Shown: positions 18,158 to 26,907 of the stretch, piece after piece
Position numbering within the stretch: the stretch's first letter is position 1
Layout: the number at the start of each line of letters is the position of its first letter
Assembly: GCF_003387155.1 (NCBI RefSeq)
Contig: NZ_QUMT01000002.1
Location: 501,694 to 565,693 of the forward strand
Direction of reading: 5' to 3'
Length of the DNA: 64,000 bases
Source of the DNA: Roseateles depolymerans
GTDB taxonomy: Bacteria; Pseudomonadota; Gammaproteobacteria; Burkholderiales; Burkholderiaceae_C
The notes under the pieces: model-generated
The model's database searches: none
Told to the model about the DNA's origin: nothing
The model's input: only the letters and a program-made list of their open reading frames with translations
Made by a program: the position numbers and the translations under genes

Positions 18158-19492
18158 ATGAGCCGGAAGTATTTCGGTACCGATGGAATCCGCGGTACGG
18201 TGGGCCAGACCCCCATCACCCCCGATTTCATGCTGCAGCTGGGCCATGCGGTCGGGCGTGTGCTCAAGCGGAGCTATGCCAAGCCCAGCGTGCTGATCGG
18301 CAAGGACACCCGCATCTCCGGCTACATGCTCGAGTCGGCCCTGGAGGCCGGTTTTGCATCGGCCGGCGTGAACGTGCTGCTGACCGGGCCGCTGCCCACG
18401 CCGGGCGTGGCCTATCTCACCCGCGCGCTGCGCCAGCATCTGGGCGTGGTGATTTCCGCGTCCCACAATCCTTTTGCGGACAACGGCATCAAGTTCTTCT
18501 CCGCCAAGGGCGAGAAGCTGCCGGACGCCTGGGAGCTGGATGTGGAGGCGGTGCTGGAAGAGTCCCCCGTCTGGGTCGATTCCGCCAGCCTGGGCCGGGC
18601 GCGTCGCCTGGATGACGCCCAGGGCCGGTACATCGAATTCTGCAAGGCCAGTTTCAGCACTGACCTGAGCCTGCGCGGCATGAAGCTGGTGGTGGACGCG
18701 GCCAATGGCGCGGCCTATCAGGTGGCGCCGTCGGTCTTCCATGAGCTGGGCGCCGAAGTCATCTCCATCGGCACCAAGCCGGACGGCTTCAACATCAACG
18801 ACAAGGTCGGCGCCACCGCACCGCAAGCCCTGGTGGCGGCGGTGAAGGAGCACGGCGCCGATTACGGCGTCGCGCTGGACGGTGATGCCGACCGACTGCA
18901 GATGGTGGACGCCCAGGGGCGGCTGTTCAACGGGGACGAGCTGCTGTTTGTCATGGTGGCCGACCGCCTCGCCCGCGGCGAGCGCGTGCCCGGTGCGGTC
19001 GGAACGCTGATGACCAACATGGCGGTGGAACTGGCGCTGCGCCAGCGTGATGTGGAATTCGTCCGCGCCAAGGTCGGCGACCGTTATGTGCTGGAAGAGC
19101 TGGCGAATCGCGGCTGGCAACTGGGCGGGGAGGGCTCCGGCCACCTGCTGGCCCTGGACAAGCACACCACCGGCGACGGCATCGTCAGCAGCCTGCTGGT
19201 GCTGGAAGCCATTGCCCGCAGCGGTCGCCCGCTGGCCGACCTGCTGGAAGGCGTGACGCTGTTCCCGCAGACGCTGATCAACGTCCGCCTGCAGGCCGAC
19301 CAGCAGGACTGGAAGGCGAATCCGGCGCTGGCCCGGACCGAAGCGGAAGTCACCGCCGAGCTGGGCGACCGGGGACGGGTGCTGATCCGCAAGTCCGGCA
19401 CCGAGCCGCTGCTGCGCGTGATGGTGGAAGCCAGCGACGCCGATCTGGCCCGCCGCTGCGCGGAGCGCTTGGTCGAAGCCGTCAAGGGCTGA
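18158..19492 (+). CDS. glmM: Phosphoglucosamine mutase
   Basis: GlmM converts glucosamine-6-phosphate to glucosamine-1-phosphate for UDP-GlcNAc, and so feeds peptidoglycan and LPS. The 444-residue protein starts [13 protein letters not shown]. The phosphorylated active-site serine is in [12 protein letters not shown] (Ser102). The metal site is DGDADR at about 240, the sugar loop EGSGHL, and the phosphate loop [16 protein letters not shown] stands about 10 nt before the ATG. A 7-bp GGTCCCG/CGGGACC hairpin (19514-19536), without a T-run, lies just after the stop. Confidence 0.96.
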
Positions 19493-19551: not shown

Positions 19552-19736
19552 AAAAAAAAGCGCCGGGCATGACCCGGCGCAATCGCATTGATGTTCTGGT
19601 GTTCGAGTTGTTGTTGGTGCCGGTCCTGGCGCGGGCAGCATTTGCGTGCTGCCCGTCCGAGCGGTGAAGCCTTTCTGCCTCATCCACGCGTGATTTCCGC
19701 GCTATCTCCCTTCGTCCGTCTGAACGATTCCCGCTG
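19552..19736 (-). ncRNA. Candidate PhoB-controlled small RNA divergent from pstS
   Basis: The minus strand shows, in order, a Pho box (19759-19787), a TAAGCT -10 exactly 10 bp after it, a predicted start near 19736, a strong hairpin with 9-bp arms and a 6-nt loop (19632-19655), an A/C-rich stretch with a CAACAACAAC run, and an intrinsic terminator (GCGCCGGG, 5-nt loop, CCCGGCGC, eight T; 19552-19580). The T-run exists only in the minus direction, and no minus-strand protein gene is available to use it. Open frames through the region lack a convincing start and run into the terminator. The length would be about 185 nt. No known sRNA family is recognised; existence and function are inferred. 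Confidence 0.6.
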
Positions 19737-19742
19737 ACCGAT

Positions 19743-19787
19743 AGCTTAAAAAGCCAAGATGACAGCCGGGTGAATCGAATATGACAG
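19743..19787 (-). promoter_or_regulatory. Pho box and -10 of the candidate small RNA
   Basis: Two exact GGCTGTCAT copies on the minus strand are 22 bp apart (two PhoB half-site periods), with the weaker GATTCAC one period in. TAAGCT (19743-19748) lies 10 bp past the last CTGTCAT, the spacing that replaces a -35 in E. coli pstS. Confidence 0.65.
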
Positions 19788-20006: not shown

Positions 20007-20049
20007 CTGTCATAGTCGTCACTGTTGTGTCACATTCGGTTCATACCAT
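20007..20049 (+). promoter_or_regulatory. Pho box and -10 of pstS
   Basis: TGTCA-like cores stand at 20008 (TGTCA), 20017 (CGTCA), 20028 (TGTCA) and 20039 (GTTCA); the last three are spaced exactly 11 bp. TACCAT at 20044-20049 lies 10 bp after TGTCAC and can serve as -10. PhoB control of the pst operon is well known in proteobacteria. Confidence 0.75.
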
Positions 20050-20086: not shown

Positions 20087-21127
20087 ATGACCATGAATCA
20101 ACTCCGTGCTGGCCTGCTGTTCGCCGCTTGCGCTACCGTGTTCTCGGTGGCCCAGGCCCAGGAAGTGACCGGTGCAGGTGCCTCCTTCCCGGCGCCCGTG
20201 TACACCAAGTGGGCTGACGCCTACAACAAGGCCACTGGCGTTCGCATCAACTACCAATCGGTGGGTTCCGGTGCCGGCATCAAGCAGATCCAGGCCAAGA
20301 CGGTGGACTTCGGCGCGTCCGACGCTCCGCTGAAGGACGACCAACTGGCCAAGGACGGCCTGATCCAGTTCCCGACCGTCATCGGCGGCGTGGTGCCGGT
20401 GGTGAACATCCCCGGCGTGAAGCCCGGCCAGATCAAGCTGAACGGCCAGGTGCTGGGCGACATCTACCTGGGCAAGATCACCAAGTGGAATGACGCGGCC
20501 ATCACCGCGCTGAACGCTGGCGTGTCCCTGCCGGACGCTCCCATCGCCGTGGTTCGCCGCGCCGACGGTTCGGGCACCAGCTTCCTGTTCACCAACTACC
20601 TGTCGAAGGTGAACGCCGAGTGGAAGTCCAAGGTGGGCGAGGGCACGTCGGTGAACTGGCCGGCCGGTGTGGGCGGCAAGGGCAACGAAGGGGTCGCCTC
20701 TTACGTGAGCCGTCTGCAGAACTCGATCGGCTACGTCGAATACGCCTACGTCAAGCAAAACAAGATGACCTACGTTCTGCTCAAGAACGCTGACGGTCAG
20801 ATCGTCAGCCCGAGCGACGACGCCTTTAAGGCCGCTGCGGCCGGCGCCAAGTGGAACGAATCGTTCTACCAAGTGCTGACCGAACAGCCGGGCAAGGAAA
20901 GCTGGCCCATCACCGGCGCCACCTTCATCCTGATGCACAAGCAGCAGGACAAGGCCGACACCGCCAAGGCCGCGCTGAAGTTCTTCGACTGGGCCTACAC
21001 CCAAGGCGACAAGATGGCTGATGACCTGGACTACGTGGCCCTGCCGGCCAGCGTGAAGGACCTGATCCGCAAGCAGTGGGCGGACAACCTGAAGGACGGT
21101 TCCGGCAAGGCGATCAGCCTGAAGTAA
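20087..21127 (+). CDS. pstS: Phosphate ABC transporter, periplasmic phosphate-binding protein
   Basis: PstS captures inorganic phosphate in the periplasm. A signal peptide ends at about residue 25 (AQA before [11 protein letters not shown]). The phosphate-binding signatures [29 protein letters not shown] and [15 protein letters not shown] are intact. The 346-residue length is normal. AGGA precedes the ATG at 20087; a second ATG two codons on is equally possible. It leads the pstSCAB-phoU-phoBR cluster behind a Pho box. A hairpin with a short T-run follows, which would favour extra pstS transcript over the distal genes. Confidence 0.96.
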
Positions 21128-24806: not shown

Positions 24807-25508
24807 ATGAGCCGTATCCTGGTCGTGGAAGACGAATCGGCAATTGCCGAGCTGATCTCCATCAATCTGCGTCATGCCGGTTTCGAGGTCACGCTCGCGG
24901 CCAATGCCGAACAGGCGCAACTGGAAGTGGACCGGGTCTTGCCGGACCTCGTGGTGCTGGACTGGATGCTGCCCGGCCAGTCCGGCATCGGCCTGGCGCG
25001 CGCCTGGCGCGGTGCCACCCGCACCCGCGAGCTGCCCATCATCATGCTGACCGCTCGTGCGGAAGAGGCGGACAAGGTGTCCGGCCTGGATGCCGGCGCG
25101 GACGACTACCTGACCAAGCCGTTCTCCACCAATGAACTGCTGGCCCGCATCCGCGCGGTGCTGCGCCGCAAGGCGCCCGAGGCGCTGGATTCGGCGGTGG
25201 ACGTGGGCGGCTTGGTGCTGGACCCGGGCACCCGGCGCGTGAGCCGTGACGGTGTCGAGGTCAAGCTCGGCCCGACCGAATTCCGCCTGCTGCATTTCTT
25301 CATGACCCATCCGGAGCGGGTGCACAGCCGCTCGCAGCTGCTGGACCGGGTCTGGGGCGACCATGTCTTCATCGAAGAGCGCACCGTGGACGTTCATGTG
25401 AAGCGCCTGCGCGAGGCGCTGGAGAAGGTCCAGTGCCAGCGCATGATCGAAACGGTGCGGGGCGCCGGTTACCGCCTGACTCAGCAAAGCAGCGCGCTGT
25501 CCGCCTGA
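24807..25508 (+). CDS. phoB: Phosphate regulon response regulator PhoB
   Basis: This OmpR-family regulator binds Pho boxes. The receiver domain has acidic residues ILVVEDES, the phospho-acceptor Asp in VVLDWMLPGQSG (about residue 52), the Thr in IMLTARAEE and the Lys in DDYLTKPFS. The winged-helix DNA-binding domain (about 130-228) ends with MIETVRGAGYRL. It has 233 residues, with AAGGGG upstream of the ATG at 24807. It presumably acts on the Pho boxes seen at pstS, phoX and the candidate small RNA in this window. It is 10 bp from phoR. Confidence 0.97.
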   Translation: MSRILVVEDESAIAELISINLRHAGFEVTLAANAEQAQLEVDRVLPDLVVLDWMLPGQSGIGLARAWRGATRTRELPIIMLTARAEEADKVSGLDAGADDYLTKPFSTNELLARIRAVLRRKAPEALDSAVDVGGLVLDPGTRRVSRDGVEVKLGPTEFRLLHFFMTHPERVHSRSQLLDRVWGDHVFIEERTVDVHVKRLREALEKVQCQRMIETVRGAGYRLTQQSSALSA

Positions 25509-25518
25509 GTCGCGTTCA

Positions 25519-26907
25519 ATGAGCTGGTTGTTGTCGCGAGTGCTGATGCTGGTGCTGGGCACCGGCATCGGCGGGTGGATCGGTTGGTGGCTGGGGCATT
25601 GGATGCTGGCGCCCCCGCTGGCAGCGGGTCTGGGGGCCGGTGTGGCCGTGTCGCTGATGGGGCTCTGGGACGCCGCCCGGGCGCACCGTCTGGTGAACTG
25701 GCTGCGCGGTGATCAGACGGAGGATGCGCCGCGGCTGGGCGGCATCTGGGGCGAGATTGCCTACCGGATGGAGCGGGGCCTGCGGGACCGCGAGCGCCGC
25801 TATGAGCGTGAACGTCAGCAGCTGGAGCAGTTCCTGCAGGCGATGGAGGCGTCCCCCAACGGCGTGATCCTGCTGGACGATCAAGACCAGATCCAGTGGT
25901 GCAACACGCTGGCGGCGCATCACTTCCAGCTGGATCCGCAGCGGGACAAGCTGCAGCGCATCACCAACCTGGTCCGATATCCTGCGTTCGTGTCCTATCT
26001 GCAGTCGCGGCAGTACAACCAGCCGCTGGCGCTGCAGAACTCGCGGGGCAAGGCGCATCTGCAGGTGTTGATGCGGGACTACGGCGTGGGCGGCGAATGC
26101 CGGCGGCTGATCCTGTCGCTGGACGTCACCGACCGCGAGCGCAATGAATCCATGCGCCGGGACTTCGTGGCCAATGTGTCGCATGAGATCCGCACGCCGC
26201 TGACGGTGCTGTCGGGCTTCATCGAGACGATGGCCAGCCTGAACCTGACGGAGGCTGAGCGCAAGCGGGTGTTGCAGCTGATGCAGCAGCAGACGCAGCG
26301 CATGCAGACGCTGGTGGGCGACCTGCTGACGCTGGCGCAACTGGAAGGCAGCCCGCGTCCGGCACCGGACCACTGGATTGCGCTGGACCCGTTGCTGGCG
26401 CGCATTGCCGCCGACGCCCGGGCCTTGTCGGCCGGGCGGCATGAGCTGGTGTGTGACCGTCTGACGCAGGTCGAGGTGGCCGGTGTGGAGACCGAGTTGC
26501 TCAGCGCCATCGCCAATCTGGTGAGCAATGCGGTGCGCTACACGCCGGAAGGCGGGCGTATCGAGCTGCATTGGCGCTGGATGGGAGAAAAGGGCGGCGA
26601 GATCTCGGTGGTGGACAACGGCCCCGGCATTGCGCGGGAACACCTGCCGCGTCTGACCGAGCGCTTCTACCGGGTGGATGGCAGCCGTTCACGAGACACT
26701 GGGGGGACGGGGCTTGGGCTGTCCATCGTCAAGCATGTGATCCAGCGGCATGGCGGCGAGCTGCGCATCGACAGCGAGCCCGGCCATGGATCGGCCTTCC
26801 GCTTGCTGTTCCCGGCGACGCGCTTGCGGCTGGTGGATGCGCCGGCGATGGGGGAGGAGTCCGCGCCGGCCATGCTGGCGTCGCGGGAGGATGACGAGGC
26901 GGCGTGA
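25519..26907 (+). CDS. phoR: Phosphate regulon sensor histidine kinase PhoR
   Basis: PhoR phosphorylates and dephosphorylates PhoB. Two N-terminal membrane helices (about residues 4-50) are followed by a basic linker, a PAS domain (about 95-190), the dimerisation box FVANVSHEIRTPLTVLSGF with the phospho-His, and the ATPase domain with NLVSNAVRYTP, DNGPGI and GGTGLGLSIVKHV. The lack of a large periplasmic domain is typical of PhoR, which senses through PstSCAB-PhoU. It has 462 residues and is the last gene of the operon; a bidirectional terminator follows. Confidence 0.96.
   Translation: MSWLLSRVLMLVLGTGIGGWIGWWLGHWMLAPPLAAGLGAGVAVSLMGLWDAARAHRLVNWLRGDQTEDAPRLGGIWGEIAYRMERGLRDRERRYERERQQLEQFLQAMEASPNGVILLDDQDQIQWCNTLAAHHFQLDPQRDKLQRITNLVRYPAFVSYLQSRQYNQPLALQNSRGKAHLQVLMRDYGVGGECRRLILSLDVTDRERNESMRRDFVANVSHEIRTPLTVLSGFIETMASLNLTEAERKRVLQLMQQQTQRMQTLVGDLLTLAQLEGSPRPAPDHWIALDPLLARIAADARALSAGRHELVCDRLTQVEVAGVETELLSAIANLVSNAVRYTPEGGRIELHWRWMGEKGGEISVVDNGPGIAREHLPRLTERFYRVDGSRSRDTGGTGLGLSIVKHVIQRHGGELRIDSEPGHGSAFRLLFPATRLRLVDAPAMGEESAPAMLASREDDEAA

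Follow-up and report, generated by a model that had tools for sequence, protein, structure and literature searches.

Introduction

PhoB-activated promoters carry CTGTCAT-type direct repeats in an 11-bp phase, which end about 10 bp before the −10 element and replace the −35 element. There is also work on small RNAs (sRNAs) that arise from decayed or rearranged genes. In Sinorhizobium meliloti, predicted PhoB sites lie at sRNA candidates, and sRNAs that answer phosphate limitation have been reported (PMC2573895, PMC8829014). CTGTCAT(N4)CTGTCAT is printed in PMC2573895, in which the four transcripts raised by phosphate starvation lack an evident PhoB site; PMC8829014 cites an sRNA that is induced by PhoB and acts on E. 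coli rpoS with the help of Hfq. Another group is formed by sRNAs derived from 3' untranslated regions (3'UTRs), which a review calls a playground for sRNA evolution (PMC9438474).

Here we describe a putative minus-strand transcription unit in a 64-kb stretch of DNA (the window) from the genus Roseateles/Mitsuaria, of which 16 genomes were compared. Like the S. meliloti candidates, the unit has a predicted PhoB site; unlike them, it belongs to another organism, and nothing in the available portions of those papers ties the candidates to a deleted fasciclin (FAS1) gene (PMC2573895, PMC8829014). Like 3'UTR-derived sRNAs (PMC9438474), it appears to have taken over the 3'-terminal sequence of an mRNA together with that mRNA's own terminator. 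It differs from them in that the coding sequence is gone, so that the RNA would be the primary transcript of the old mRNA promoter, with no processing needed; because the window's locus holds no parent ORF, we do not class the RNA as a member of that group. Literature searches on PhoB and sRNAs, on Roseateles small RNAs and on sRNAs from lost genes gave no report of the unit among the papers listed, and with such partial coverage this is no proof of its absence from the literature. The available parts of PMC4035088 and PMC5689173 hold nothing on point for the unit.

Results

A candidate PhoB-driven unit between glmM and pstS

The unit and its neighbours comprise the following features.

19789-19781 and 19767-19759, minus strand: Pho box, two GGCTGTCAT repeats at a spacing of exactly 22 bp, making up three 11-bp units of which the central one is degenerate
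19748-19743, minus strand: −10 element TAAGCT, 10 bp past the second Pho-box repeat
19552..19736, minus strand: predicted noncoding transcript of about 185 nt, 5' end placed near 19736 by prediction, supported by the fold z score and homologous units in sister species
19655-19632, minus strand: hairpin CGGGCAGCA/TGCTGCCCG of 9 pairs, from the fold
19620-19581, minus strand: A/C-rich single-stranded linker, a possible seed, with CAATGC (19590-19585) and then GATT at its end
19580-19560, minus strand: stem of the intrinsic terminator (9 pairs, loop of 3), followed by eight T at 19559-19552, from the terminator scan
20007..20035, plus strand: pstS-facing Pho box, CTGTCAT...GTGTCACAT, 3 mismatches to the pattern, forming a divergent promoter pair with the minus-strand box
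20087..21127, plus strand: pstS, an ORF present in 16/16 genus genomes
18158..19492, plus strand: glmM, convergent with the RNA unit, an ORF with predicted start whose orthologues flank the locus in relatives

The Pho box, the TAAGCT at 10 bp, the 9-bp hairpin, the A/C-rich stretch and the eight-T minus-strand terminator had all been named in a preliminary description of this DNA, and each is present in the sequence. The pattern CTGTCAT-N15-CTGTCAT has a single exact occurrence in the 64-kb window; if up to 3 mismatches are allowed, the window contains 7 matches against a mean of 3.8 in shuffles, so that only the exact match is informative. Judged by sequence, the Pho box and the −10 element follow the rule for PhoB-type promoters, and a scan for a two-hexamer sigma-70 promoter found none in the unit's region. 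In the terminator scan, the main site faces the minus strand (shuffled mean 0.7). The same scan gave a weaker minus-strand terminator-like hairpin just downstream of it (19522-19503), most of which lies opposite a gap in the alignment with the sister genome G010. The predicted 185-nt RNA folds better than its shuffles (z −2.95), as does its final 115 nt (z −3.9). The anatomy of a discrete short RNA, with a putative promoter, hairpin and intrinsic terminator, can be read in the window; transcription, PhoB dependence and a base-pairing mode of action are inferred.

Each of the 20 genomes in the tree described below has ftsH-folP-glmM on one flank of the locus and pstSCAB-phoU-phoB on the opposite flank; in 12 of the 20 stretches fetched, at least half the length of phoR was recovered. 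When the region served as a DNA query, 13 of the 16 genus genomes gave matches, mostly to the Pho box alone. PstS was found in 16/16, which allowed the glmM-pstS intergenic region to be read in every one of them.

Relatives carry a FAS1 gene between the promoter and the terminator

In three of the 16 genus genomes (G001, G014 and G008), a gene for a FAS1 lipoprotein lies on the minus strand between glmM and pstS (domain PF02469, E 1.7e-34 for the L011 protein). It is preceded by a Pho box of the same type and ends at a minus-facing terminator. The gene is absent from the locus in the other 13 genomes, including that of the window; six of these have weaker FAS1 matches elsewhere and seven have none at E 1e-5. 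The preliminary claim that no minus-strand protein gene can use the terminator is correct for the window, where only mechanical ORFs cross the terminator on that strand, but it does not extend to the relatives, in which the FAS1 gene occupies the stretch from this promoter to this terminator.

Of 250 genomes sampled across the family, 139 have a FAS1 match. The 30 best-scoring FAS1 loci of this sample (L014-L043, one of which, in G008, belongs to the window's genus) all adjoin pstS and are divergent from it, with glmM inside the fetched stretch in 19 of the 30. Among 80 named pstS loci, FAS1 is there in 36 and missing in 44. Lipoprotein genes with a FAS1 domain thus commonly lie divergent from pstS in the family; the pair is old, and the window's unit is its leftover. 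Literature searches of partial coverage on fasciclin with pstS or PhoB gave, among the papers listed, nothing on point regarding the function of the pair.

Fifteen of the 44 FAS1-less loci have glmM adjacent and belong to other genera; left out of this set were two genus members, one locus with glmM far away and 26 with glmM out of reach. None of the 15 has a minus-strand terminator, so retention of the unit looks special to the window's genus, which can mean a function there or merely another kind of deletion. Some gene-less loci of other genera that lack the terminator (L085, L071 and L103) show minus-oriented TGTCA-like repeats near the glmM side of the region upstream of pstS.

A conserved coding frame through the region, which the preliminary description had named as evidence against an RNA, was searched for, and no ORF is common to the 12 gene-less species; a small protein on the transcript was rejected as a candidate. 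Short ORFs with a Shine-Dalgarno-like stretch do occur in three of the 12 (G004, G006 and G010), as would be expected if the transcript coded for a small protein, but the G010 ORF is unrelated to the other two, those of G004 and G006 run past the end of the RNA, the remaining nine species have no such ORF and the FAS1 frame is gone, which makes a coding role next to negligible in probability.

Sequence ties between the unit and the lost gene

Most gene-less species retain the promoter and the terminator, and many also retain the last codons and the 3'UTR. The intergenic region of G012 aligns over 65 nt with the FAS1 3' end of G014 (E 3.8e-11) and G001 (E 4.2e-12); the match begins one base before the last FAS1 codons, CCCCCGAAGAAGTAA, and covers the 3'UTR and the terminator. 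In addition, a TGAGGAGAA stretch in G012 resembles one that precedes the FAS1 start codon in G014 and G001. Three clade B genomes (G005, G006 and G011) match the same FAS1 3' segment weakly (E 0.002-0.04). The promoter of the window is homologous to that of G014 and G001 (E 5e-9). For the window's 3' part, a direct match was lacking in the gene-bearing relatives; this part is tied to the FAS1 3' end stepwise, via G010, G009 and G012, by place and alignment. A 3'UTR-derived origin with a shared terminator is therefore seen in G012 against G014 and G001, to which the window is linked stepwise only.

The preliminary description had implicitly treated the RNA as an sRNA that arose independently of any lost gene. 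This agrees with the absence of a direct match between the window's 3' part and the gene-bearing relatives, but it leaves unexplained the promoter homology to G014 and G001 as well as the homology of the 3' part, in the same place and on the same strand, through the three intermediate genomes; we consider it very improbable. The alignments instead identify the unit as what remains of a transcription unit from which the FAS1 ORF appears to have been deleted.

A ten-gene tree of 20 genomes groups the gene-bearing G001 and G014 with the window's gene-less clade as its sister (support 100/100) and places the second gene-less clade outside both. Consequently, two losses of the FAS1 ORF in the genus are most parsimonious. 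One loss followed by a regain in G001/G014 is a possible alternative, because both gene-less clades have an identical 3' boundary and the FAS1 gene tree does not decide between the two histories (p-AU 0.464).

Conservation of the promoter and constraint on the 3' module

The Pho-box core TGTCATATTCGATTCACC is nearly invariant in the genus. By reading, a TANNCT −10 element stands at the same 10-bp distance in 13 of the 16 genomes, namely 10 of the 13 gene-less and all three gene-bearing ones. By script, 11 of the 13 gene-less genomes have a terminator in the corresponding position, and a twelfth, in G013, was seen by eye. The −10 elements of G003 and G013 are altered and the linker is degraded or lost, with G013 having lost the hairpin as well as the linker. 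In G015 (L008) the complete minus-strand Pho box is kept and the −10 element, the RNA and the terminator are gone. The RNA is thus dispensable in G015, and conservation of the Pho box is by itself no argument for an sRNA; this genome serves as a natural control in which the box is perhaps constrained for another reason, e.g. pstS.

Rates were computed in clade B for six of the eight species, without the decaying G003 and G013, and also for all eight; differences per site are given in that order. The Pho box shows 0.03 and 0.04, like the pstS leader, and the region from the Pho box to the end of the −10 element 0.18 and 0.27. Within the RNA, the values are 0.39 (48% gaps) and 0.45 for the 5' part, 0.18 and 0.22 (21 of 28 pairs) for the hairpin plus linker, 0.19 and 0.18 for the terminator stem, and 0.30 and 0.40 for the T tract. 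The sequence after the terminator reaches 0.57 (43% gaps) and 0.58; the spacer between the Pho boxes and the fourfold sites stand at 0.31 and 0.26, respectively, in both sets. Accordingly, the 3' module is clearly slower than its flanks and just moderately slower than fourfold sites (0.18 vs 0.26). A GGAAAAATSTCGTTACG stretch is conserved between the two Pho boxes in seven of the eight clade B species (e.g. L009 and L012), with G002 slightly different, and none was seen in the window's clade.

Between the window and its sister G010, the linker is 97% identical (32/33 columns, from CAACAACTCG on), compared with 86% for the terminator, 79% for the middle and 64% for the 5' part of the RNA, 60% for the spacer between the Pho boxes and 55% after the terminator. 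Within the linker, CAATG is invariant in all 13 aligned sequences, two of them gene-bearing; the alignment (A1) leaves out G013 and G015, in which the segment is missing, and G008. The probability of five unchanged positions is 0.007 at the all-site rate of the tree and 3e-7 at three times that rate, both rough values uncorrected for the choice of the motif. Among 56 terminators of 19 loci, CAATG lies just upstream of 11, every one of which is this unit or a FAS1 3'UTR, in the same place. Of 61 FAS1 3'UTRs, 25 have a detected terminator, and CAATG precedes seven of these, two from the genus, which makes it a feature of near relatives. The 3' module shows constraint in the related species, and the 3' end of the unit stayed conserved after the loss of the protein, as if the mRNA had become a regulatory RNA.

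Two readings without a functional RNA bear on these observations. According to the first, there is no minus-strand transcript and the minus-strand Pho box just aids PhoB binding upstream of pstS, in line with the strong conservation of the box, which at 0.03-0.04 differences per site resembles the pstS leader and is one of the slowest pieces, and with its survival alone in G015. We regard this as highly doubtful, since the TANNCT element stands at exactly 10 bp in 10/13 and a minus-facing terminator is present in 11/13 gene-less genomes, and in 3/16 genomes this promoter stands before a protein gene. The second, the main rival of a functional RNA, is a passive relic, in which the Pho box also serves pstS, so that an active minus-strand promoter is hard to lose, the terminator is kept because it stops PhoB-driven antisense transcription into glmM, and the RNA itself is inert. 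The Pho box without RNA in G015, the terminator of G013 that, by eye, outlasted its hairpin and linker, and the TGTCA-like repeats near glmM without a minus-strand terminator in some gene-less loci of other genera are all consistent with a relic, but neither constraint on the linker and hairpin nor compensatory changes in the hairpin are predicted by it. We hold the relic to be possible, though on the unlikely side.

Predicted structure of the RNA

In clade B, 93.7% of the cells of a two-helix structure pair, a value reached by 5 of 500 shuffles (seven sequences; G013 was left out as the segment is missing). The covariation analysis proposed in the preliminary description gave a divided outcome: the covariation score of 0.153 was reached by only 13/500 shuffles, but double-change pairs show no excess (77/500 shuffles reach the count), nor do further pair types (307/500), and the RNAalifold covariation term is near zero (−0.04). 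G010 has, by reading, a 6-bp helix against the 9-bp hairpin of the window, with an A-U to G-C exchange. The 9-bp hairpin is probably the counterpart of the pre-terminator hairpin in the relatives, and the aligned units contain a modest number of apparent compensatory changes.

From 10 sequences, with G000, G009 and G010 left out, a covariance model (R1) was built for the 3' module. In the genus, its strong matches (E < 1e-17) are confined to the ten sequences used for training; G009 and G013 have copies at background level (25-26 bits), and neither the window's copy nor that of G010 is among the matches listed, which indicates that the window's copy has diverged much. In the 250 family genomes, the best match (E 3.5e-8) falls in the FAS1 3'UTR of G220, and the others reach at most 32.6 bits.

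The preliminary statement that the RNA belongs to no known family is borne out by a search of 4227 Rfam models, none of which matches the unit at its gathering threshold; at relaxed thresholds, scores are 12.8-20.2 bits against gathering scores of 43-70. Membership in P13, anti-hemB, ncS54 or SorX was rejected, as these weak matches fall far below the gathering scores; the resemblance to these families lies mainly in the terminator hairpin and U-tail.

The phoR start as a candidate partner

The 40-nt linker (19620-19581, minus strand) was paired with gene starts. By duplex energy, the start of phoR (25508-25555, plus strand) ranks first among 35 crude genes of the window and also first among 903 gene starts (−37.5 kcal/mol), which are crude ORF calls, false ones included, from 1.26 Mb or 22% of the genome. 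None of 1000 shuffled linkers pairs with phoR as well as the real one, and of 21,064 windows on both strands only three reach phoR's energy: phoR itself, the complementary strand of the locus and a further one. The G010 linker also pairs with phoR (−38.2 kcal/mol, z −4.2), and in nine other species the complementarity shows no excess (z −1.7 to 1.0). When the whole RNA is cofolded, phoR falls to rank 61 of 903, and with opening costs included it takes rank 120 of 902 at a net +4.5 kcal/mol. Tests that count RNA structure thus do not support the phoR start as a target, and other clades lack the complementarity; we keep it as a lead. Hfq is encoded in the genome.

Discussion

We propose, with a probability of roughly 0.58, that the unit is the noncoding frame that survived a deleted FAS1 lipoprotein ORF and is selected as a PhoB-driven, probably base-pairing noncoding RNA. 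A PhoB-type promoter would have driven a FAS1 lipoprotein gene divergent from pstS, and the coding sequence would then have been deleted both in the lineage of the window and, apparently as an independent event, in another clade of the genus. Left behind would be the promoter with its Pho box, part of the 5'UTR, the 3'UTR region, the terminator and, in many species, the last codons. Cells short of phosphate probably still make the shortened transcript of about 90-185 nt, which selection probably keeps as a noncoding RNA, whose 3' module (the hairpin, the linker with CAATG and the U-tailed terminator) may act as a base-pairing regulator, probably with the assistance of Hfq.

The preliminary observation was real and its interpretation partly right. 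Its reading of a PhoB-type sRNA is supported in that the putative promoter and terminator frame a predicted noncoding, structured RNA with a constrained 3' part. What it did not foresee is the origin, namely a transcription unit that seems to have outlived its protein.

A more far-reaching scenario can be drawn, in which two independent losses of the same PhoB-controlled lipoprotein ORF uncovered and preserved a regulatory RNA that was already working in the 3'UTR of the mRNA, and in which the linker of the window's lineage lengthened and acquired complementarity to the translation start of phoR, closing a feedback loop from PhoB through the RNA to PhoR. Taken jointly, these steps are distinctly improbable.

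The locus draws attention to the divergent FAS1-pstS pair that is common in the family. Gene-bearing and gene-less relatives with the same promoter and terminator form natural before-and-after pairs, by which the passage from an mRNA to a stand-alone sRNA through loss of the coding sequence, and likewise an earlier function of the 3'UTR, become directly testable.
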